Shown here: positions 9,883 through 20,498 of the stretch, piece by piece
Layout of the letters: every line of letters starts with the position of its first letter
How positions within the stretch are numbered: the stretch's first letter is position 1
Source: a bacterium
Lineage (GTDB): Bacteria; Campylobacterota; Campylobacteria; Campylobacterales; Arcobacteraceae
Reading direction: 5' to 3'
DNA length: 64,000 nucleotides
NCBI GenBank assembly: GCA_018816105.1
Contig: JAHIWE010000017.1
Location: 1 to 64,000 of the forward strand
Position numbers and translations under genes: made by a program
The notes under the pieces: model-generated
What the model was told of the DNA's origin: nothing
Database searches by the model: none
The model's input: the letters and a program-made list of their open reading frames with translations, nothing else

Positions 9883-10854
9883 ATGAATAAAGATTTGGAT
9901 TATTATCTTAGTTTAGATTACCCAATAGAGAGTTATTCTGGGGAAAATGAAATCGGAGATGCTTATTTGGTGCAATATATTGATTTTGATATAAAAGCTG
10001 CCAGTGAAGATTATGATGAAGCTGTTTTATTGGCTAAAGAGTATCTCAAAAAGCATTTAGAAAAACAATTAAAATTAAATAATCCAATTCCAAAACCAAA
10101 AGAAGGTATAAGATTTATGGAACACAGAACTGCTCTTGAGGCGTATAAAAACAAAGATTTTAAAAAAGCTCACGATATTTGGATTGAAGAAGCTAAATTT
10201 AAAAATGACCAAGCAATGGCAAATTTAGGTTTAATGTACCTAAAAGGTGAAGGTGTAGAAAAAGATTATACAAAAGCAAAAGAGTTTTTTGAAAATGCAA
10301 GCTCTTATGATAATGATTCTGCAAATTTTAATTTGGCATTAATGTACCAAACAAAAATTGGCGTTGAAGAGGATATTTCTAAGGCTATTGATTATTATAG
10401 ACGTGCTGTTAGAAAAAATCACGTTCAAGCAGCGTTTAGATTGGCTTTGATTCTTTTAAAAGATAGAACAAATCTTGATGGTGTTAAAGAAGGATTTTAT
10501 TGTATGTTAAAAGCAGCAAAAGCAGGCCACGTAATGGCAACTGTTCAATTAACAGGAGTTGATAAACCTTTGGTTGAAGAAGCTGAGTTAAATGAGTTTT
10601 TTAGGGCAAAAGATTTAGAAACACAATTAGAAATCATAAATGATGCACTTGAAAGATTTATAAGACCAATTTTGAAAAAAGATGGTGGAAATATAATTTT
10701 AATAGATTATATAAATGAACCTGATATTGAACTAAGACTTGCCTATCAAGGTGCTTGTGTTGGATGTTCTATTGCATCAACTGGAACTTATGAAATGATT
10801 AGAAATACAATTGAGCAAATCATTGATAAAAAAGTAAGGATTTACGTATTATGA
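9883..10854 (+). CDS. Sel1-repeat protein fused to a NifU C-terminal domain
   Basis: The 323-residue product has three parts. Residues 1-65 form an unassigned N-terminal region. Residues about 93-215 hold Sel1/TPR-like repeats (for example AMANLGLMYLKGEGVEKDYT at 111-130). Residues about 252-323 are a NifU C-terminal (Nfu) domain with the cluster ligand pair C292 and C295. Nfu domains deliver [4Fe-4S] clusters; Sel1 repeats usually mediate protein contacts. The pairing suggests a cluster-delivery protein with a docking module for nitrogenase assembly (inference). It lacks the NifU N-terminal scaffold and the central ferredoxin domain. It overlaps nifX by ATGA. Confidence 0.85.
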   Translation: MNKDLDYYLSLDYPIESYSGENEIGDAYLVQYIDFDIKAASEDYDEAVLLAKEYLKKHLEKQLKLNNPIPKPKEGIRFMEHRTALEAYKNKDFKKAHDIWIEEAKFKNDQAMANLGLMYLKGEGVEKDYTKAKEFFENASSYDNDSANFNLALMYQTKIGVEEDISKAIDYYRRAVRKNHVQAAFRLALILLKDRTNLDGVKEGFYCMLKAAKAGHVMATVQLTGVDKPLVEEAELNEFFRAKDLETQLEIINDALERFIRPILKKDGGNIILIDYINEPDIELRLAYQGACVGCSIASTGTYEMIRNTIEQIIDKKVRIYVL

Positions 10855-11216
10855 AAATTGCATTTGCTTCAAAAGATAATATTTATGTAAATCAACACTT
10901 TGGTTGGTGTAAAGAGTTTTATATTTATGAAATCTTAGAAGATGATTACAATTTTATAAAATCTGTTGATTCTTCCCTTGAAATTGATGATGAAATAGAA
11001 AAACTCACTTACAAAATAGAGTGTTTAGAAGATAGCGATATTTTATATGTTCAACAAATTGGCCCAAAAGCTTCAAGAATGGTTCAATCTTGTAAAATAT
11101 TTCCAATGCAATCAAGCAGAGAAAATGAAAAGATTGAAGATATTTTAAATCAATTGATAAAAATGAGATCTAATCCTCCAATTTGGATGAGAAGGTTATT
11201 AGAAAATGAATCATAA
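10851..11216 (+). CDS. nifX: Nitrogen fixation protein NifX
   Basis: This 121-residue protein has the NifX hallmarks: MKIAFASKDNIYVNQHFGW at the start, YEILEDDY, a YVQQIGPKASRMVQ segment and the C-terminal NPPIWMRRLL. NifX binds NifB-co and FeMo-co precursors and shuttles them to NifEN. Its start overlaps the stop of the Sel1-NifU gene (ATGA) and its end overlaps the flavodiiron gene by 11 bases, so the four genes are tightly coupled in one sigma-54 operon. Confidence 0.92.
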   Translation: MKIAFASKDNIYVNQHFGWCKEFYIYEILEDDYNFIKSVDSSLEIDDEIEKLTYKIECLEDSDILYVQQIGPKASRMVQSCKIFPMQSSRENEKIEDILNQLIKMRSNPPIWMRRLLENES

Positions 11217-12444
11217 TAAACCAATAGAAATAGTAGATAATATTTTCTTTATTGGGGTCTTTGACCCTGATATTAGAACATTTGATATTATAATGAAAAC
11301 AGCAAACGGTTCTTCATACAATGCTTATTTGATTAAAACAGACGAAGGTGTGATTATTGTTGATACTGTAAAAGTTGAGTTTCAGCAAGAGTTTTTTTCA
11401 AAAATCGAACAACTTTGTTCATATGATGAAATAAAATATGTATTATGTCACCACTTAGAACCAGATCACGCAGGTGCAATTCCTGAACTAATCAAACGTG
11501 CTCCTCAAGCAAAAGTTCTAATTTCACCTCAAGCAACACCTATGTTAAAAGCAATTACAGATAAAGAAGATATTGATTTTGAAACAGTGTGGACAAATAA
11601 AAGTTTAGTTTTAGGAAATAAAACAATTAAATTTTTAACAACACCTTATTTACATTGGCCTGAAACCATGAGTTCTTATGTGGTTGAAGATGGTCTTTTA
11701 TTTAGTGGAGATGTTTTTGGTAGCCATTATTACGATAAAAGACTTTTTGATGATTTAGTAGGTGATTTTTCTTACTCTTTTAAATACTATTATGACCATA
11801 TTATGAGACCTTTTAAATCTTATGTTTTAAGTGCTTTAAAACTCTATGATAAATTAGATATTTCAGTAATTGCTACTTTACATGGTCCAATTATTAGAGA
11901 AAAACCATATAAATATATTGAACTTTATAGAAAATGGAGTTTAGATAGACCTGATAATATAAGCTCAAATGATAAAATCATCTCTATTTTTTATCTAACT
12001 AGTTATAAAAATACTAGAGATATGGCTGAAGCTATTTTTGATGGAGCTGAAAGTGTAAAAACAATTCGTACAAGTTTGTATGATTTAGCTTCTATTGAAG
12101 AACAAAATATGATAAATATTCTAGAAGAGAGTGATGGAATACTAATAGGAACTCCAACAATCAACGCAGATGCCCCAAAACCAATATGGGATTTATTATC
12201 TTGTATGATGTATTTGGAGAAAAAAGGCAAAACTGGTCACTCATTTGGATCATATGGTTGGAGTGGAGAAGCTCCAAAAATGATACTTGATAGGATGAAA
12301 TCGTTACATTTTAGAGTACCTCCAATGGAATCTATGAAAATTAGACTCATTCCAACCAAAGATGAATTAAAAAACTGCTATGATTTCGGTAGAGAATTTG
12401 CCGAAATTGTAAATGGTAAAATGATTGAAATAGATATGAACTAA
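11206..12444 (+). CDS. Flavodiiron protein (oxygen/nitric oxide reductase, FprA type)
   Basis: This 412-residue protein has a metallo-beta-lactamase-like domain with the full diiron ligand set (H83, E85, D87, H88, H150, D169, H226) and a C-terminal flavodoxin domain (about 255-405, FMN loop around YLTSYKNTRDMAEA). Members reduce O2 to water or NO to N2O in the cytoplasm. As the last gene of a sigma-54 nif operon and overlapping nifX, it is best read as oxygen protection for nitrogenase assembly (inference from context). No rubredoxin domain is attached, so an external reductase is needed. Confidence 0.93.
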   Translation: MNHNKPIEIVDNIFFIGVFDPDIRTFDIIMKTANGSSYNAYLIKTDEGVIIVDTVKVEFQQEFFSKIEQLCSYDEIKYVLCHHLEPDHAGAIPELIKRAPQAKVLISPQATPMLKAITDKEDIDFETVWTNKSLVLGNKTIKFLTTPYLHWPETMSSYVVEDGLLFSGDVFGSHYYDKRLFDDLVGDFSYSFKYYYDHIMRPFKSYVLSALKLYDKLDISVIATLHGPIIREKPYKYIELYRKWSLDRPDNISSNDKIISIFYLTSYKNTRDMAEAIFDGAESVKTIRTSLYDLASIEEQNMINILEESDGILIGTPTINADAPKPIWDLLSCMMYLEKKGKTGHSFGSYGWSGEAPKMILDRMKSLHFRVPPMESMKIRLIPTKDELKNCYDFGREFAEIVNGKMIEIDMN

Positions 12445-14277: not shown

Positions 14278-14562
14278 ATGAAAACAAAACCTACAGTAAT
14301 ACTTCTAAAAGGTAATGGCCCAATTTCTATAAATAATGAATTAATGGAGCTAATTACAATTACTACTTCACACGGTTTTATTGGTTTCCCACTAAAACAA
14401 CTTCGTGCACAAAAAGTTATGACACTAACTGACTATGATAGATTTTTAACAATTGAAAAAGAAATTTTTGCAAAACCATGTTGTTTTGTTTTTTCTTATG
14501 ACAAATTAGAAGATAAAGATTTAGAACTTATTAAGGCTGAAGAGTTAGAAATTTTAGAATAA
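14278..14562 (+). CDS. Unknown 94-residue protein in the nifB operon
   Basis: This 94-residue soluble protein (starts MKTKPTVILLKGNGPISINN, with adjacent cysteines near residue 66) follows nifB by 10 bases and ends inside a strong terminator. I do not recognise its family; it is not NifT, NifZ or a ferredoxin by eye. Position behind nifB and before the terminator implies co-transcription from the sigma-54 promoter. It lacks a Shine-Dalgarno sequence and starts right after a hairpin, so translation may depend on ribosomes finishing nifB (inference). Confidence 0.75.
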   Translation: MKTKPTVILLKGNGPISINNELMELITITTSHGFIGFPLKQLRAQKVMTLTDYDRFLTIEKEIFAKPCCFVFSYDKLEDKDLELIKAEELEILE

Positions 14563-14586: not shown

Positions 14587-16470
14587 TTATTGTTTAGGTA
14601 ATTTGTTTTTTAATTTAGCAATTATAAAATTATCAAGCCCACATTTAACATTTTCAAAATCGCCATCTAGATATTTAATTTGATTCTTATAGATAACTGC
14701 CCATTTATTATCTTCATCTTTAAATACAATAGCATTCTCATCTTTGTAACAAACTTCTATTGAACTTAAATCTTTTGAATTTAATTTTTTAAATTGATAA
14801 TTATATATAGAGTCTTCCTGCCGATTTGAAACAGTTATATATTTATCTTTAAAATTAACTCTTCCTTCTACTTCTAAAAGTTTATGTTCATCCCCAATTT
14901 TGTATATTGTACTCTCTCCTTTTATGAATACTGCATATAAATCACCCTTAATATCAGTTATGTTCTTATATTTTGCTTCTACAACAATTTGTAAATCTAT
15001 ATCCATAATTCCATATAAACCATTTTTTCTAAAGATTGCATATTTAGCATCTTTATTTATCTTCCAAATATAATCAGCTTTAAATAATGGCTCACTATTT
15101 CCTTCTTTAAAAATATAATATCCAGAAGGTTCTCCTGCAGAATTATTTTTAATTATTTCTCCTAGGATATATTTTTTATCTTCGTTAAAATTATCTAATT
15201 CTTTAAATTTTGCAGGTAGAATTAAATCTCCATTTGTATTATATAAAGAATTATTGTAATAATTTATTGTTGCTTTGAAATATATAATATCTCCATTTTT
15301 ATTGTATTTTGGAGTTATGTCTTTATATTTAAGAGGAATGATAATTTTTGAATCTTTATCTATTACACCTTTCATTATATTAAAATTATTTACTCGTGAT
15401 GAAACTATAAAATAAGTTTTATCATGTAAGTAAGTATAAGGGAAGATAGTATCATATGATTGTGAAAATAGTATTCCTCCATTTGAATCTAAAATTATAT
15501 TTTGCCCTTTCCCGATATCTAAAATATTATAATTATTTATTACTGAGTTTCTATATGTTATTACCCCTGTAAATTTTTTAGTATCAAGATTCATAAACTC
15601 ATATAACTTTTTTTTCTCATTGTATATAGGCACAAATTTCTTAGAAGAATATTCTCCAATATCATCGAGAGGAGAATTAATAACATTAGTATTATATTTA
15701 TTTATAATGAACCAATGATTATTTAATTTTACAGGTTGAATACCATCTATGAAATAACCTTTATATGGAATGTTTTTAATGTCATCATATTGAGCAGGGA
15801 TAATAACATTAAAATTTGAATCAAAGAAACCATATTTATTATCTTTTTTAAAAGGTACCATATCATTATCATATTGATCTGTCTCTATCCATTGATATAT
15901 TGTAGGTACATTTAATTTTTTTGTTTGTGCATCTAGAATTCCATATCTATCATTCTTTTTTACTACAATGTATCTATTATTAATTATTTTTATATCTTCA
16001 AAAATATCCGTTGATAAGGGTTCACTATCAAATGAATAAATTTTAAAATTGTCAAGTACTCTTAAATCTATAGTCTCTTTAATTTTGTTATTTTCAGTTT
16101 TTATGAAAAAACTATTTTGTATCTCACCATTTGCATTTTTATTAAATGCCCCACTCCATGATAACCTTTCATTCCCTCCATAGATACGTACTTTTTTTTC
16201 GTCATTTGTGAAAAGTTTTTCTTCTTTTTTAGTTGTACTTTTAGATAATACATCTAATTCTTGAATTGCTTCTAAATCATTTTCAGTAGAATATTTCACT
16301 GAATTCCATTTATTCTTATCTTTTTCAAACTTTAGATAAATAACATCTGAACCGCTAATTTGTTTGTAAACTCCATCATATCTTAATGGTTTTACATCCT
16401 TAGTTGCAATACAACCACTAAATCCCAATATCAATCCTATAATTGATATTACATAAATTAATTTTCTCAA
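14587..16470 (-). CDS. WG-repeat lipoprotein
   Basis: This 627-residue protein begins with a lipoprotein signal (hydrophobic segment ending in FSGC, lipid-modified Cys at about residue 20) from a TTG start at 16470 with AAGGA six bases upstream. The body holds many WG/KWG-type repeats, for example KKNDRYGILDAQTKKL, KKDNKYGFFDSNFNVIIPAQY and RKNGLYGIMDIDLQIVVEAKY. These beta-hairpin repeats are common in surface or periplasmic proteins of unknown role. It sits on the opposite strand between the nifB and nifV units, has no sigma-54 element, and breaks the nif island. Confidence 0.85.
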   Translation of the reverse strand: MRKLIYVISIIGLILGFSGCIATKDVKPLRYDGVYKQISGSDVIYLKFEKDKNKWNSVKYSTENDLEAIQELDVLSKSTTKKEEKLFTNDEKKVRIYGGNERLSWSGAFNKNANGEIQNSFFIKTENNKIKETIDLRVLDNFKIYSFDSEPLSTDIFEDIKIINNRYIVVKKNDRYGILDAQTKKLNVPTIYQWIETDQYDNDMVPFKKDNKYGFFDSNFNVIIPAQYDDIKNIPYKGYFIDGIQPVKLNNHWFIINKYNTNVINSPLDDIGEYSSKKFVPIYNEKKKLYEFMNLDTKKFTGVITYRNSVINNYNILDIGKGQNIILDSNGGILFSQSYDTIFPYTYLHDKTYFIVSSRVNNFNIMKGVIDKDSKIIIPLKYKDITPKYNKNGDIIYFKATINYYNNSLYNTNGDLILPAKFKELDNFNEDKKYILGEIIKNNSAGEPSGYYIFKEGNSEPLFKADYIWKINKDAKYAIFRKNGLYGIMDIDLQIVVEAKYKNITDIKGDLYAVFIKGESTIYKIGDEHKLLEVEGRVNFKDKYITVSNRQEDSIYNYQFKKLNSKDLSSIEVCYKDENAIVFKDEDNKWAVIYKNQIKYLDGDFENVKCGLDNFIIAKLKNKLPKQ

Positions 16471-16618: not shown

Positions 16619-16636
16619 TCGGAACACTATTTGCAT
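16619..16636 (+). promoter_or_regulatory. Sigma-54 promoter of the nifV operon
   Basis: GG (16621-16622), ten bases, GC (16633-16634), in the context TTCGGAACACTATTTGCATA. It lies 34 bases before the nifV ATG. An inverted repeat TTAGAA-N4-TTCTAA lies 15 bases upstream of the GG (16591-16606). Confidence 0.85.
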
Positions 16637-16668: not shown

Positions 16669-17781
16669 ATGCCAATTATTAATGATACAACTTTAAGAGA
16701 TGGTGAACAAACGCCATTCGTAGCTTTCAACCTAAAAGAGAAATTACAAATAGCAAGGCTTTTATATGAAGCTGGTGCAGATGAGCTCGAAGTAGGAATT
16801 CCTGCAATGGGGAAAAAAGAACAAGAAGATTTAAAAGAGATTCTTGCCCTTAATTTACCTATTCCAATAATGAGCTGGAATAGAGCTACGATGAGTGATT
16901 TAGAAGCCTCTTTAAAGTGTGGACTAAAAGCAGTTGATTTATCTATACCTGTTTCAGATATTTTGATTGACATTAAATTTGGTGGAGATAAAACAAGATT
17001 ACTAAAACAACTAGAAACGGTAATTTTACAAGCTAAAAAAGAAAATTTATTTGTTTGTATTGGTGGTGAAGATTCAAGTCGCGCGAATAACTCTTTTTTA
17101 AAAGAGATTATGACATTAGGATTTGAACTTGGTGCAAATAGATTTAGATATTGTGACACGGTTGGTATTTTAACACCTCATAAAACTTATGAGAATATCA
17201 AAGATTTAAGTTCTTCGAATCTTTTAGATATAGAAATGCATACTCACAATGACTTTGGAATGGCTACCGCAAATGCAATTGCAGGATATGAAGCAGGAGC
17301 TTATAGCTCTAATACTACGGTTATTGGTATTGGTGAGAGAGCTGGAAATGCTAGTTTTGAGCAAGTATTAATGTCTTTGAGACTTTTGGGAAAAGAAATT
17401 AATATTAATTCAAAAGCTTTAAAATCTCTTATTAAAACTGTAAGTAGTGCTTCTCATAGAAGAGTTGATACTAACTTACCAATTGTCGGTAAAAACATAT
17501 TTTCACATGAATCTGGAATTCATGTAAATGGCATGATGAAATCAAAAAATGCTTATGAGCCTTTTAATCCTGAAGAATTAGGTCTTAAAAGAAGTTTTCC
17601 AATAGGAAAACACTCAGGAAGTTCAACTTTGATTTATCATCTTAAATCTATTGGGATAGAACCCAATATTCAAATCGTACAAAAACTACTTCCAAAAATT
17701 AGAGAAATAGTAACTAATAGAAAAAAAGTATTAAGTACAAATGAATTAAAAGAGTTATACCTATGTTCCTTGGATATTTAA
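16669..17781 (+). CDS. nifV: Homocitrate synthase NifV
   Basis: This 370-residue DRE-TIM metallolyase has the N-terminal NDTTLRDGEQTP motif, the HTHNDFGMATANAIA metal-binding segment and the GERAGNASFEQ segment of the homocitrate synthase/isopropylmalate synthase family. It condenses acetyl-CoA with 2-oxoglutarate to give homocitrate, the organic ligand of FeMo-co. Length and the absence of a regulatory LeuA C-terminal domain favour NifV over LeuA. It heads a six-gene sigma-54 operon ending in nifQ, and its end overlaps the next gene by 19 bases. Confidence 0.93.
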   Translation: MPIINDTTLRDGEQTPFVAFNLKEKLQIARLLYEAGADELEVGIPAMGKKEQEDLKEILALNLPIPIMSWNRATMSDLEASLKCGLKAVDLSIPVSDILIDIKFGGDKTRLLKQLETVILQAKKENLFVCIGGEDSSRANNSFLKEIMTLGFELGANRFRYCDTVGILTPHKTYENIKDLSSSNLLDIEMHTHNDFGMATANAIAGYEAGAYSSNTTVIGIGERAGNASFEQVLMSLRLLGKEININSKALKSLIKTVSSASHRRVDTNLPIVGKNIFSHESGIHVNGMMKSKNAYEPFNPEELGLKRSFPIGKHSGSSTLIYHLKSIGIEPNIQIVQKLLPKIREIVTNRKKVLSTNELKELYLCSLDI

Positions 17782-18569
17782 AAAATGGATTTGAACAATC
17801 TTTAGAGGATTTAATAAATTTTAATCCTTTATTTGACTTAGAATTATTAAGAAAAACATATTCTGTATTTCCTGAGTATTGTTTTGCTGCCTATGAAGAT
17901 TCGAAAATTGTGGGCGTTATTAGTGCATACTCTTTTAATAAACATCTATATATTAATGTTTTTGAAGTATTAGATGATTATGAAAATCTTTTTACAAGAT
18001 TAATTTCATTATTGATAAGAAATTTATCAGATGCAAATATTCTAGTTTTGGTTGAGAATGAACGCAGTTATGATTTAGAAAAACTAGGATTTCAAAACTA
18101 TAGTGATTTTGTACGTTTACTTCATACAGGTGAAGCAGTAGCTTTTAATTTTTCAAACTCTACAGCTAAACAAGTAAATGCAGAGCATTATGATGAAGTT
18201 GCAAGAAGAATAGATAAAAAAGTTTTTGATGATGAAAGAGATAATTATTTAAAGCAAGATTGTGTTTTTTCAAACTCTTTGAAACTTTCAACAGATTTTG
18301 GTTTTTTGCACTCTTATGTTGTAAATAAAAGATATATCAAAGTTTCTCCTTGGCTTATGGAAAACGAAGCTTTTTTAGATGCTGAAAAGCTCTTAAGAGG
18401 TCTTTTGTATTATCGAGGATTAAAGAAAATCTTTGCATATGCACCAAAAGATGTAAAAGAGATAGTGGATTTATATGAAAGCTATAAGTTTAAAATTGAT
18501 GGTGATTTTAAACTTATGTATTTGAATGATAAACCAAATATAAAACTTGAAAACCTATATGGAATATAA
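17763..18569 (+). CDS. GNAT-like protein in the nifV operon
   Basis: This 268-residue protein has weak GNAT acetyltransferase character: an AAYEDSKIVGVISAYSF strand pair near residues 45-60 and a YDLEKLGFQNYSDFVRLLHTG segment near 115-135, with a second similar half toward the C-terminus (FAYAPKDVKEIVDLYESYKFK). The acetyl-CoA loop is not clear. The start overlaps nifV by 19 bases, so it is translationally linked to homocitrate synthesis. I do not know a nif protein that matches. Fold assignment is tentative. Confidence 0.6.
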   Translation: MFLGYLKNGFEQSLEDLINFNPLFDLELLRKTYSVFPEYCFAAYEDSKIVGVISAYSFNKHLYINVFEVLDDYENLFTRLISLLIRNLSDANILVLVENERSYDLEKLGFQNYSDFVRLLHTGEAVAFNFSNSTAKQVNAEHYDEVARRIDKKVFDDERDNYLKQDCVFSNSLKLSTDFGFLHSYVVNKRYIKVSPWLMENEAFLDAEKLLRGLLYYRGLKKIFAYAPKDVKEIVDLYESYKFKIDGDFKLMYLNDKPNIKLENLYGI

Positions 18570-18580
18570 AGGAGCAAAAA

Positions 18581-18787
18581 ATGGTAACAACAGACGAACA
18601 AAAAGAATTAAAAAAACAGTTAGCAAAATTTAAAAGAATAGTATCTGAATTAGCAGGTGAGGTACATGATATTGTGGAAGATACAATCTGGACAGATTAT
18701 GTAAAGTTACCAAAATTAAGTGAAGATATTAATATTGCTATGAAAGAAGTTATTGATTTTCAAGAAAAACACCCTTTTTTAAAGTAG
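18581..18787 (+). CDS. Small Rop-like nif-associated protein
   Basis: This 68-residue all-helical protein (starts MVTTDEQKELKKQLAKFKRI) resembles the Rop-like/CCE_0567 family that occurs next to nifX in many diazotrophs: an LKKQLAKFKRIVSELAGEVHDIVED first helix followed by a short turn and second helix. The family forms a small helical hairpin of unproven role. AAAGGAG precedes the ATG. Assignment rests on pattern and context. Confidence 0.65.
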   Translation: MVTTDEQKELKKQLAKFKRIVSELAGEVHDIVEDTIWTDYVKLPKLSEDINIAMKEVIDFQEKHPFLK

Positions 18788-18793
18788 TTTATT

Positions 18794-19036
18794 ATGAAAA
18801 ATATAAAAGAAAAACAGATTTGTGAATGTGGTGAAATGACTGTGTTTCAAGCTCAAAAGATATTTGAGCAAACAGATTTGCCATATAAAAAAGCCAAAAA
18901 ACTAGTTACAGGTTGTAATCAAACATGTTGCAGGCGACCTTTGATGGCTTTGTTTAATATGGTTGAATTTGGGCAAATTGATTATGAAGAGATAGCATTT
19001 TTAATTGATGCTAAGAATGATAGATTGAAGGATTAA
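18794..19036 (+). CDS. Small cysteine-rich protein, BFD-like [2Fe-2S] candidate
   Basis: This 80-residue protein has a C10-x-C12 pair and a later C41, C45, C46 group (GCNQTCCRRPLMAL). A C-x-C near the N-terminus followed about 30 residues later by a closely spaced pair after a Gly resembles the bacterioferritin-associated ferredoxin (BFD) [2Fe-2S] fold, and the intervening TVFQAQKIF segment is similar. It would be an electron or cluster carrier in the nifV operon (inference). It lies 6 bases after the Rop-like gene and 2 before the LRR gene. Confidence 0.6.
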   Translation: MKNIKEKQICECGEMTVFQAQKIFEQTDLPYKKAKKLVTGCNQTCCRRPLMALFNMVEFGQIDYEEIAFLIDAKNDRLKD

Positions 19037-19038
19037 CA

Positions 19039-20034
19039 ATGAGTAGTGATATTGGCAATTTTGTAAAATGGATTAGAGCAAATGGTTTAACTCCTATTAT
19101 GTCAGTTTTCGAAGATGATTTAGAGTTATTGACTCATTTGGATTTATCAAAAAGAAACATAAAAGATTTACCTGAATCAATCGGTGTTCTAAAAAATCTT
19201 AGTGTTTTAAAGTTATCAAACAATAGATTAAGAAAACTACCAAAAGCAATAGGTGAATTAAAAAATTTAAGAAATTTACAATGTGAAAATAATCTAATAG
19301 AAGAGTTACCATCAACAATAGGTAATCTTTCAAATTTGATGATTTTAAACCTAAATGTAAATAGATTAAAAAAATTACCAAAAGAGTTTTATAATCTAAA
19401 ATCTCTAACTAGATTGACACTTGCTGCAAATAGAATTGAGGATTTAGATGAAGAATTTAAAAACTTATCAAAACTTTTATATTTGTCATTGGAAACAAAT
19501 GAATTAGAAGATTTATCTGATGTATTTGGAAAAATGCAACAGCTTTATTATTTAGATTTATCTTTTAATCATTTAACAACACTTCCTAAATCTTTATCTG
19601 AAATAAAAGAGCTTCAAACACTTATTTTAGAAGGAAACAATTTAAGAGAACTTCCTTCTTTGGAGTCCCATGATATGTTAATAAAACTTGATTTAAGCCA
19701 GAATTCTTTGAAATCTTTGGATTTTGATCTTAGTAAACTGGAAGATTTAAAGATTTTACTTTTAGATAATAATTTACTAATTTCGCTTCCTTCAAAGATT
19801 TGTGAATTAAGTAAATTAACTCACCTCTCGGTTAGTTCTAACTATTTAGAGTCTTTACCTGAGCATATTGGTGAAATAGAAACTTTACAAGAGTTAGATG
19901 TTGAGGATAATGAATTGGACTCTTTACCTGATTCTATTGAAAATTTAAAAAATTTAAAAAATCTCTTTATTGCAAACAATAATGGTTTAAAAAAACCAGC
20001 AATAGCAAGTTTAGAATTTTGTGATATAAAGTAG
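19039..20034 (+). CDS. Leucine-rich repeat protein in the nifV operon
   Basis: After about 28 residues this 331-residue protein consists of 12-13 tandem 23-residue leucine-rich repeats of the LxxLxLxxNxLxxLPxxIxxL type. There is no signal peptide or membrane segment, so it is cytoplasmic. LRR solenoids bind other proteins. Being between a cysteine-rich protein and nifQ in a sigma-54 nif operon suggests a scaffold or chaperone role in cofactor assembly (inference). Spacing is 2 bases from the upstream gene and 8 to nifQ. Confidence 0.85.
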   Translation: MSSDIGNFVKWIRANGLTPIMSVFEDDLELLTHLDLSKRNIKDLPESIGVLKNLSVLKLSNNRLRKLPKAIGELKNLRNLQCENNLIEELPSTIGNLSNLMILNLNVNRLKKLPKEFYNLKSLTRLTLAANRIEDLDEEFKNLSKLLYLSLETNELEDLSDVFGKMQQLYYLDLSFNHLTTLPKSLSEIKELQTLILEGNNLRELPSLESHDMLIKLDLSQNSLKSLDFDLSKLEDLKILLLDNNLLISLPSKICELSKLTHLSVSSNYLESLPEHIGEIETLQELDVEDNELDSLPDSIENLKNLKNLFIANNNGLKKPAIASLEFCDIK

Positions 20035-20042
20035 GAAATAAA

Positions 20043-20498
20043 ATGAGAAATTTATCTTATATGGAAAATGAAGTATTAAAACTTCTTCAAACTCATGCAA
20101 ATGATGATTATTCAAAAAATGAATTAGCACCTTGGATAGCAAAAACTTCTCTAGAAATGGGGCATTTGTACTCAGATTTAGGATTAGCTAGCAGAAAAGA
20201 AATGGGAGAGTTTATGTCTAAACACTTTAGCTCTTTGGCTAAATTAAAACCAGAAGATAAAAGATGGAAAAAATATCTTTATGATTGTATCGGTAAAACA
20301 GCTCCTGCTTGTGCCACTTGTAATGACATAAGTAATTGTTTTAACTGTACTTTAAATCCAGATAGAGTTGAAAAAAAAAAGAGTAAGACCCTTGGAAATA
20401 TAAAACAAAAACTTCTAGTAGAAAAAAAAGATTTAGTTATATTAGTTTCGTTCGAAGTTGCAATTGTTTTAGTCTCTTTTGCTTTTGTTTATAGATAA
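20043..20498 (+). CDS. nifQ: NifQ-like molybdenum donor with C-terminal membrane anchor
   Basis: The product (151 residues) carries NifQ signatures: HLYSDLGLASRKEM at 41-54, KRWKKYLYDC at 73-82, and the cysteine cluster C90-x2-C93-x5-C99 with flanking C82 and C102. NifQ holds a Mo-Fe-S cluster and gives molybdenum to NifEN/NifH. Unusually, residues about 131-150 form a hydrophobic helix after a Lys-rich stretch, ending in R151, like a tail anchor that would tether the protein to the inner membrane. Known NifQ proteins are soluble. It closes the nifV operon. Confidence 0.82.
   Translation: MRNLSYMENEVLKLLQTHANDDYSKNELAPWIAKTSLEMGHLYSDLGLASRKEMGEFMSKHFSSLAKLKPEDKRWKKYLYDCIGKTAPACATCNDISNCFNCTLNPDRVEKKKSKTLGNIKQKLLVEKKDLVILVSFEVAIVLVSFAFVYR

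Follow-up and report, generated by a model that had tools for sequence, protein, structure and literature searches.

A conserved nif-linked gene block between nifV and nifQ, very probably an accessory module of molybdenum nitrogenase particular to the Campylobacterota

We have analyzed a stretch of 64,000 nucleotides (the window) from a genome of the Arcobacteraceae (GenBank assembly GCA_018816105.1, contig JAHIWE010000017.1, positions 1 to 64,000 of the forward strand), in which four accessory genes lie between nifV, encoding homocitrate synthase, and nifQ. These encode a tandem-GNAT-fold protein, a Rop-like protein of the DUF683 family, a small cysteine-rich (Cys-rich) protein and a leucine-rich repeat (LRR) solenoid. 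Comparison of the sequences indicates that the block is almost certainly an accessory module of molybdenum nitrogenase, in all likelihood one confined to the Campylobacterota, and we refer to it as the nif accessory module. As judged from the loci compared, the block genes occur with nifV, share the order nifV-GNAT-DUF683-Cys-rich-LRR and decay together.

The occurrence of the genes was profiled in 249 Campylobacteria genomes. There is a nifV gene in 33, and NifQ is encoded in the same 33. Within this group the Cys-rich protein is present in 32 genomes, DUF683 in 31, the tandem GNAT in 21 and a stand-alone LRR orthologue in 19, while no intact Cys-rich, GNAT or LRR orthologue was found in any nifV-negative genome among the 249. 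Co-occurrence with nifV gives Fisher p values of 1e-39 (Cys-rich), 2e-22 (GNAT) and 6e-20 (LRR), which overstate the certainty because the genomes are related and so not independent. One genome (G224) has lost nifV. Its decayed nif locus (L143, G224:C1:1429000-1440000) contains fragments, in order, of nifV, GNAT, DUF683, Cys-rich and LRR-GNAT. NifZ is present in 33 of 33 nif-positive genomes, and replacement of NifZ by the block is thereby ruled out.

The order of the genes was compared over 81 loci. A nifV gene lies no more than four genes upstream of the Cys-rich gene in 71 of these. The gene before Cys-rich is DUF683 in 62 loci and nifV in 13, and the gene after it is an LRR (38 loci), an LRR fused to a C-terminal GNAT (19) or a lone GNAT (9). 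The Cys-rich gene has no neighboring nifV at L101, L102, L105, L114 and L144, and at two further Cys-rich loci, L104 and L110, the end of the contig truncates the locus. The neighbors at the nifV-less loci are apparently unrelated housekeeping genes, with a 2Fe-2S ferredoxin-like and/or L-aspartate-oxidase-like gene (judged by eye) at three of them. A first-pass annotation of this DNA had named phylogenetic profiling and synteny in other nif islands among the ways to check the linkage, and over the 249 genomes and 81 loci the linkage holds.

The GTDB genome collection was also scanned for the Cys-rich profile. Of the 111 relatives that this yielded, the 80 kept all belong to the Campylobacterota as judged by title or locus type. 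No Cys-rich or GNAT relative was found among 72,556 plasmids, 244 of which carry a NifB relative, and no relative of the block was found in viral contigs. The block is likely to be absent from other phyla on the basis of these searches, although this falls short of proof since the genome scan used a single peptide pattern (KAKKLVTxC).

The variants found in different lineages, including Sulfurospirillum and the genome G203, show that the block is made up of no fewer than two units that can part from each other, one being nifV-GNAT and the other Cys-rich-LRR. The arrangement in Sulfurospirillum is nifV-Cys-rich-LRR; a GNAT is missing there, and the DUF683 gene is solitary and far from nif, with uninformative neighbors. 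In G203 (locus L070) DUF683-Cys-rich-LRR-NifQ lies 44 kb from nifV-GNAT, with the Cys-rich and LRR genes still adjacent. Sulfurimonas has an LRR-GNAT fusion, and blocks of the Sulfurimonas type also have a FeoA-domain gene (L137:5455-5679 and equivalents) that separates the tandem GNAT gene from DUF683. The LRR has gone in Sulfuricurvum, leaving a lone GNAT at its position. With the contributions of NifV and NifB removed, the correlation of evolutionary rates is 0.38 (40 loci) or 0.60 (54 loci) for Cys-rich/LRR and 0.61 for GNAT/DUF683; these values are modest and come from pairs that are not independent, and they agree in part with the two-unit split. The Cys-rich and LRR proteins likely act as a pair.

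The first-pass annotation suggested that the four proteins might form a complex for homocitrate and molybdenum insertion, the LRR protein being a scaffold between NifV and NifQ. The nifV and GNAT genes do overlap, by 1-19 nucleotides in 55 of 55 adjacent pairs, nifQ follows the LRR gene in the Arcobacteraceae, and NifQ shares its 33 genomes with NifV. But nifQ adjoins the block in the Arcobacteraceae only, being several kb to tens of kb away or on another contig in most other families, so the molybdenum tie is weak and such a complex is not specifically supported. The tie to homocitrate stands for the GNAT, but the Cys-rich/LRR pair lies apart from nifV in G203. Furthermore, many diazotrophs have a working NifV and NifQ but do not have the block genes, whose Cys-rich and GNAT members are lacking from the plasmids scanned. 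We therefore consider an insertion complex to be quite improbable, while retaining from the proposal a plausible adaptor role for the LRR protein.

The Rop-like gene is, from its match to PF05082 above cut-off, a member of the known DUF683/CCE_0567 nif metalloprotein family. The protein is indeed Rop-like as first annotated, but its family is already known from nif clusters elsewhere. In a Bradyrhizobium plasmid nif cluster a DUF683 gene lies between nifX and fdxB and is named a CCE_0567 family metalloprotein, and a title cited in PMC3538637 refers to the family as a nif metalloprotein.

The Cys-rich protein matches no family in Pfam, NCBIfam or PHROGs. C10, C12, C41, C45 and C46 are invariant in 49 relatives, the core is KKAKKLVT, and the spacing CxC-x28-CxxxCC (x28/x3) is found in 105 of 110 Cys-rich open reading frames. 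An AlphaFold2 model based on 49 sequences (mean confidence, pLDDT, 91) predicts a fold with these five cysteines that resembles Bfd, the bacterioferritin-associated ferredoxin. Bfd is the best match in the PDB (Z 5.9, root-mean-square deviation 2.1, 55 of 56 residues), and the next unrelated structure has Z 3.1. In an end-to-end register of residues 7-61 of the model on 1-56 of the Bfd chain, the CxC pair of the Cys-rich protein would fall on the CxC pair of Bfd. The Foldseek E value against Bfd is weak at 3.9, so that the likeness is a resemblance of fold and not proof of common descent. There is no match of the sequence to the BFD Pfam family at E values up to 1, and a PDB profile search did not return Bfd; no sequence kinship to Bfd or NifU was found, and the likeness is at the level of fold only. 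The ligand pattern of Bfd is CxC-x(31-34)-CxxC. Thus the term BFD-like in the first-pass annotation is apt for the predicted fold, but not for the sequence or the cysteine pattern. We infer that the Cys-rich protein binds an iron-sulfur (Fe-S) cluster.

Bfd acts on the iron of bacterioferritin. The Bfd-like protein might by analogy release or carry iron for the nitrogenase clusters, with control exerted by the LRR and GNAT proteins. The predicted fold is consistent with such a role, as are the FeoA-domain gene inside the Sulfurimonas block and the presence of DUF683, a metalloprotein family by the title noted above. However, the FeoA gene is missing from the block in the window, there is no bacterioferritin at the locus, and the cysteine pattern is unlike that of Bfd. 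Iron supply thus seems an unlikely function.

The model of the LRR protein (pLDDT 96) has 13 beta strands with a period of 22-23 residues, bearing out the 12-13 repeats first noted. It is a solenoid with LxxLxLxxNxL repeats, and no signal peptide was seen by eye. Entropy averages 0.85 bits at the exposed positions of the concave face, compared with 2.34 for the loops and the convex side (p = 1e-12). The concave face is predicted to be a binding face because these positions are strongly conserved, which makes an adaptor role plausible. Generic LRR proteins are the closest in fold, and the matches listed for the model do not include 1LRV. No link to LRV_FeS (PF05484) was found, the 33 nif-positive genomes having no match above cut-off. 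The LRR relatives encoded on plasmids are generic LRR proteins of 34-43% identity, mostly from Leptospira. The statement that LRR proteins are not known in nitrogenase assembly was too strong. In P. stutzeri the LRR gene PST1332 lies between nifY and nifE and is 3.3-fold up in nitrogen fixation (PMC2820453).

The tandem GNAT protein of the window scores 21.9 bits for PF00583 (cut-off 20.7) and 21.5 for PF18014, just under the cut-off of 22.7; PF18014 is matched by 32 of 38 relatives. The profile match to the structure 3ddd spans the full length and both domains. GNAT-like is therefore a fair description of the fold, but the acetyl-CoA P-loop (motif A, Q/RxxGxG/A) is missing from the N-terminal domain in the window lineage. 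It has been lost in 25 of 25 loci with a stand-alone LRR, the window included, and is kept at all loci where a GNAT occupies the LRR position, including the Sulfurimonas type. Three loci with a GNAT at that position were missed by the regular expression, and their P-loops (QRQGIGKR, QNQGIGKR and TRQGIGRR) were read from the sequences.

This distribution bears on the possibility of post-translational control, in which the GNAT would acetylate NifV, nitrogenase or a regulator, the LRR protein would bring the target, and the Bfd-like protein would sense redox state or oxygen. The LRR-GNAT fusion, the lone GNAT at the LRR position and the P-loop retained in the tandem GNAT at those loci are all in accord with it. 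The loss of the P-loop wherever the LRR stands alone is not, and no single GNAT of the LRR-slot family was found in the genome of the window (E 1e-10; assembly 92% complete). We regard control of this kind as improbable.

The mechanism that we tentatively favor is one of an Fe-S carrier and an LRR adaptor, suggested by the two models. The Cys-rich protein would bind an Fe-S cluster and work paired with the LRR protein, whose concave face would hold either a client in nitrogenase assembly or the Bfd-like protein. The small Fe-S protein could then pass electrons or its cluster to the client held by the LRR while nitrogenase matures or operates. The tandem GNAT, translated from the overlap with nifV, may have homocitrate synthase or DUF683 as its partner, and in the window lineage it would bind without acting as an acetyltransferase. 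A more specific proposal, which we hold to be rather doubtful, is that the LRR protein serves for docking in a complex, restricted to this phylum, for nitrogenase maturation or protection. As the scaffold it would bind a Bfd-fold Fe-S protein of a new, five-cysteine type, and in Sulfurimonas it would carry a fused acetyltransferase. If that were true, Campylobacterota would have a step of nitrogenase assembly or control that is not known from any model diazotroph.

A number of observations weigh against a dedicated nif module that works through an Fe-S carrier and an LRR adaptor. The LRR position in the 33 nifV-positive genomes holds a stand-alone LRR in 19, an LRR-GNAT fusion in four and a lone GNAT in four, and neither LRR nor GNAT in six. 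The genome G186 lacks DUF683, Cys-rich and LRR, and has kept nifV, NifQ and NifZ, so the accessory set is not strictly essential. To these may be added the modest rate correlations, a Z score for Bfd that is below 8, in the range where common small-fold resemblance is possible, and a cysteine spacing that departs from the Bfd ligands. Taken to the extreme, the absence of three genes from G186 with the rest of nif kept could mean that the four genes are unrelated passengers that share the nif operon but take no part in nitrogen fixation. This is very unlikely given the near-perfect co-occurrence, the synteny across families, the conserved cysteines and concave face, and the co-decay in G224.

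The six genes from 16669 to 20498 run head to tail (Table 1), and their open reading frames are confirmed at the coordinates given. The overlap of nifV and GNAT is 19 nucleotides, and the gaps are 11 (GNAT/Rop-like), 6 (Rop-like/Cys-rich), 2 (Cys-rich/LRR) and 8 (LRR/nifQ) nucleotides, confirming the tight spacing of the accessory genes described previously. A sigma-54-like site lies 33 nucleotides 5' of nifV. As a single site it is weak evidence, because the window is AT-rich and contains 100 matches compared with 53 expected. However, 19 of 70 loci have a site with at least 10 of 12 consensus matches in the 75 nucleotides 5' of nifV (mean 1.2 and maximum 4 in shuffles), and one at about 33 nucleotides is also found in Arcobacteraceae and Sulfurovaceae relatives. 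This agrees with the sigma-54 operon of the first-pass annotation.

Table 1. Positions of the genes and promoter-like site of the nifV-nifQ region in the window.
Feature	Position	Strand	Basis
sigma-54 (-24/-12) type promoter CGGAACACTATTTGCA	16620..16635	+	10/12 match to TGGYAYRNNNNTTGCW
nifV, homocitrate synthase	16669..17781	+	TIGR02660, 470.9 bits (cut-off 462.9)
Tandem-GNAT-fold protein gene	17763..18569	+	PF00583, PF18014; nearest solved structure 3ddd, E 1.2e-9
Rop-like (DUF683 / CCE_0567 family) gene	18581..18787	+	PF05082, 36.5 bits (cut-off 27)
Cys-rich 80-residue protein gene	18794..19036	+	Predicted Bfd-like fold; CxC-x28-CxxxCC
LRR solenoid gene, 331 residues, 13 repeats	19039..20034	+	PF13855/PF12799; LRR_8 E 1.6e-32
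nifQ, 151 residues	20043..20498	+	PF04891, 72.6 bits (cut-off 27)

The NifQ protein of the window is about 43 residues longer at its C-terminus than its relatives of 105-108 residues (L063-L069), and the tail is hydrophobic. This suggests that the frame now runs beyond its ancestral stop and takes in formerly intergenic sequence. Upstream of nifV, a gene for a WG-repeat protein of 627 residues (14587-16470, minus strand) follows nifB and a 94-residue open reading frame. This gene appears to have entered the nif cluster recently, since the close relatives L064 and L065 have just 78-79 nucleotides at that position. The 94-residue frame (14278-14562) has no Pfam or NCBIfam family and is kept after nifB in L032, L046 and L064-L067. 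Elsewhere in the nif region there are Sel1 repeats fused to a NifU-like domain (9883-10854), flanked by two NifX-like (Nitro_FeMo-Co) genes, and a flavodiiron-type protein with ODP beta-lactamase and flavodoxin domains (11206-12444) that could offer oxygen protection.

The Campylobacterota are reported to be major dark, chemolithoautotrophic fixers of N2 (PMC11474244). The literature searched on nitrogen fixation in this phylum names only standard nif genes, and no published description of the block was found there, subscription journals being outside its scope. Conserved proteins that follow nif, three of them uncharacterized, suggest that the nitrogenase of Campylobacterota relies on components not known in Azotobacter or Klebsiella. 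This bears on which genes are listed as sufficient for nitrogenase, and it supplies two unnamed protein families, the Cys-rich Bfd-fold protein and the nif LRR.

Each protein of the block can be compared with a known system. The Cys-rich protein resembles Bfd (the [2Fe-2S] ferredoxin of P. aeruginosa, 6e6r and 4e6k) in predicted fold, in small size, and in having CxC near the N-terminus with a later cysteine cluster. It differs in its five cysteines, an extra C-terminal helix and the lack of a family sequence match, and its gene is tied to nif whereas that of Bfd is tied to bacterioferritin. The Rop-like protein belongs with DUF683 / CCE_0567, but elsewhere this gene is found by nifX and fdxB, and in the window it is beside the Cys-rich gene. 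The GNAT matches the tandem-GNAT proteins (3ddd; PF00583 with PF18014) over its whole length, but has lost motif A in the Arcobacter, Sulfurovum and S. arcachonense types and is translationally coupled to nifV. The LRR protein shares fold and repeat consensus with generic LRR proteins (Leptospira LIC10831/LIC11098, SHOC2), but the nif LRR orthologues are 52-65% identical, are confined within the sample to nif-positive genomes and have specific conserved concave residues. Finally, the LRV protein of A. vinelandii (PDB 1LRV) is a nif-linked leucine-rich repeat variant with an Fe-S cluster. As with LRV and PST1332, a nif cluster would encode both a solenoid of repeats and an Fe-S part, here as two adjacent genes; the LRR of the window is however classical, and the Cys-rich part has its own gene and a different fold. 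The parallel of an Fe-S part with a repeat solenoid is thus a lead offered by analogy, and not a homology.

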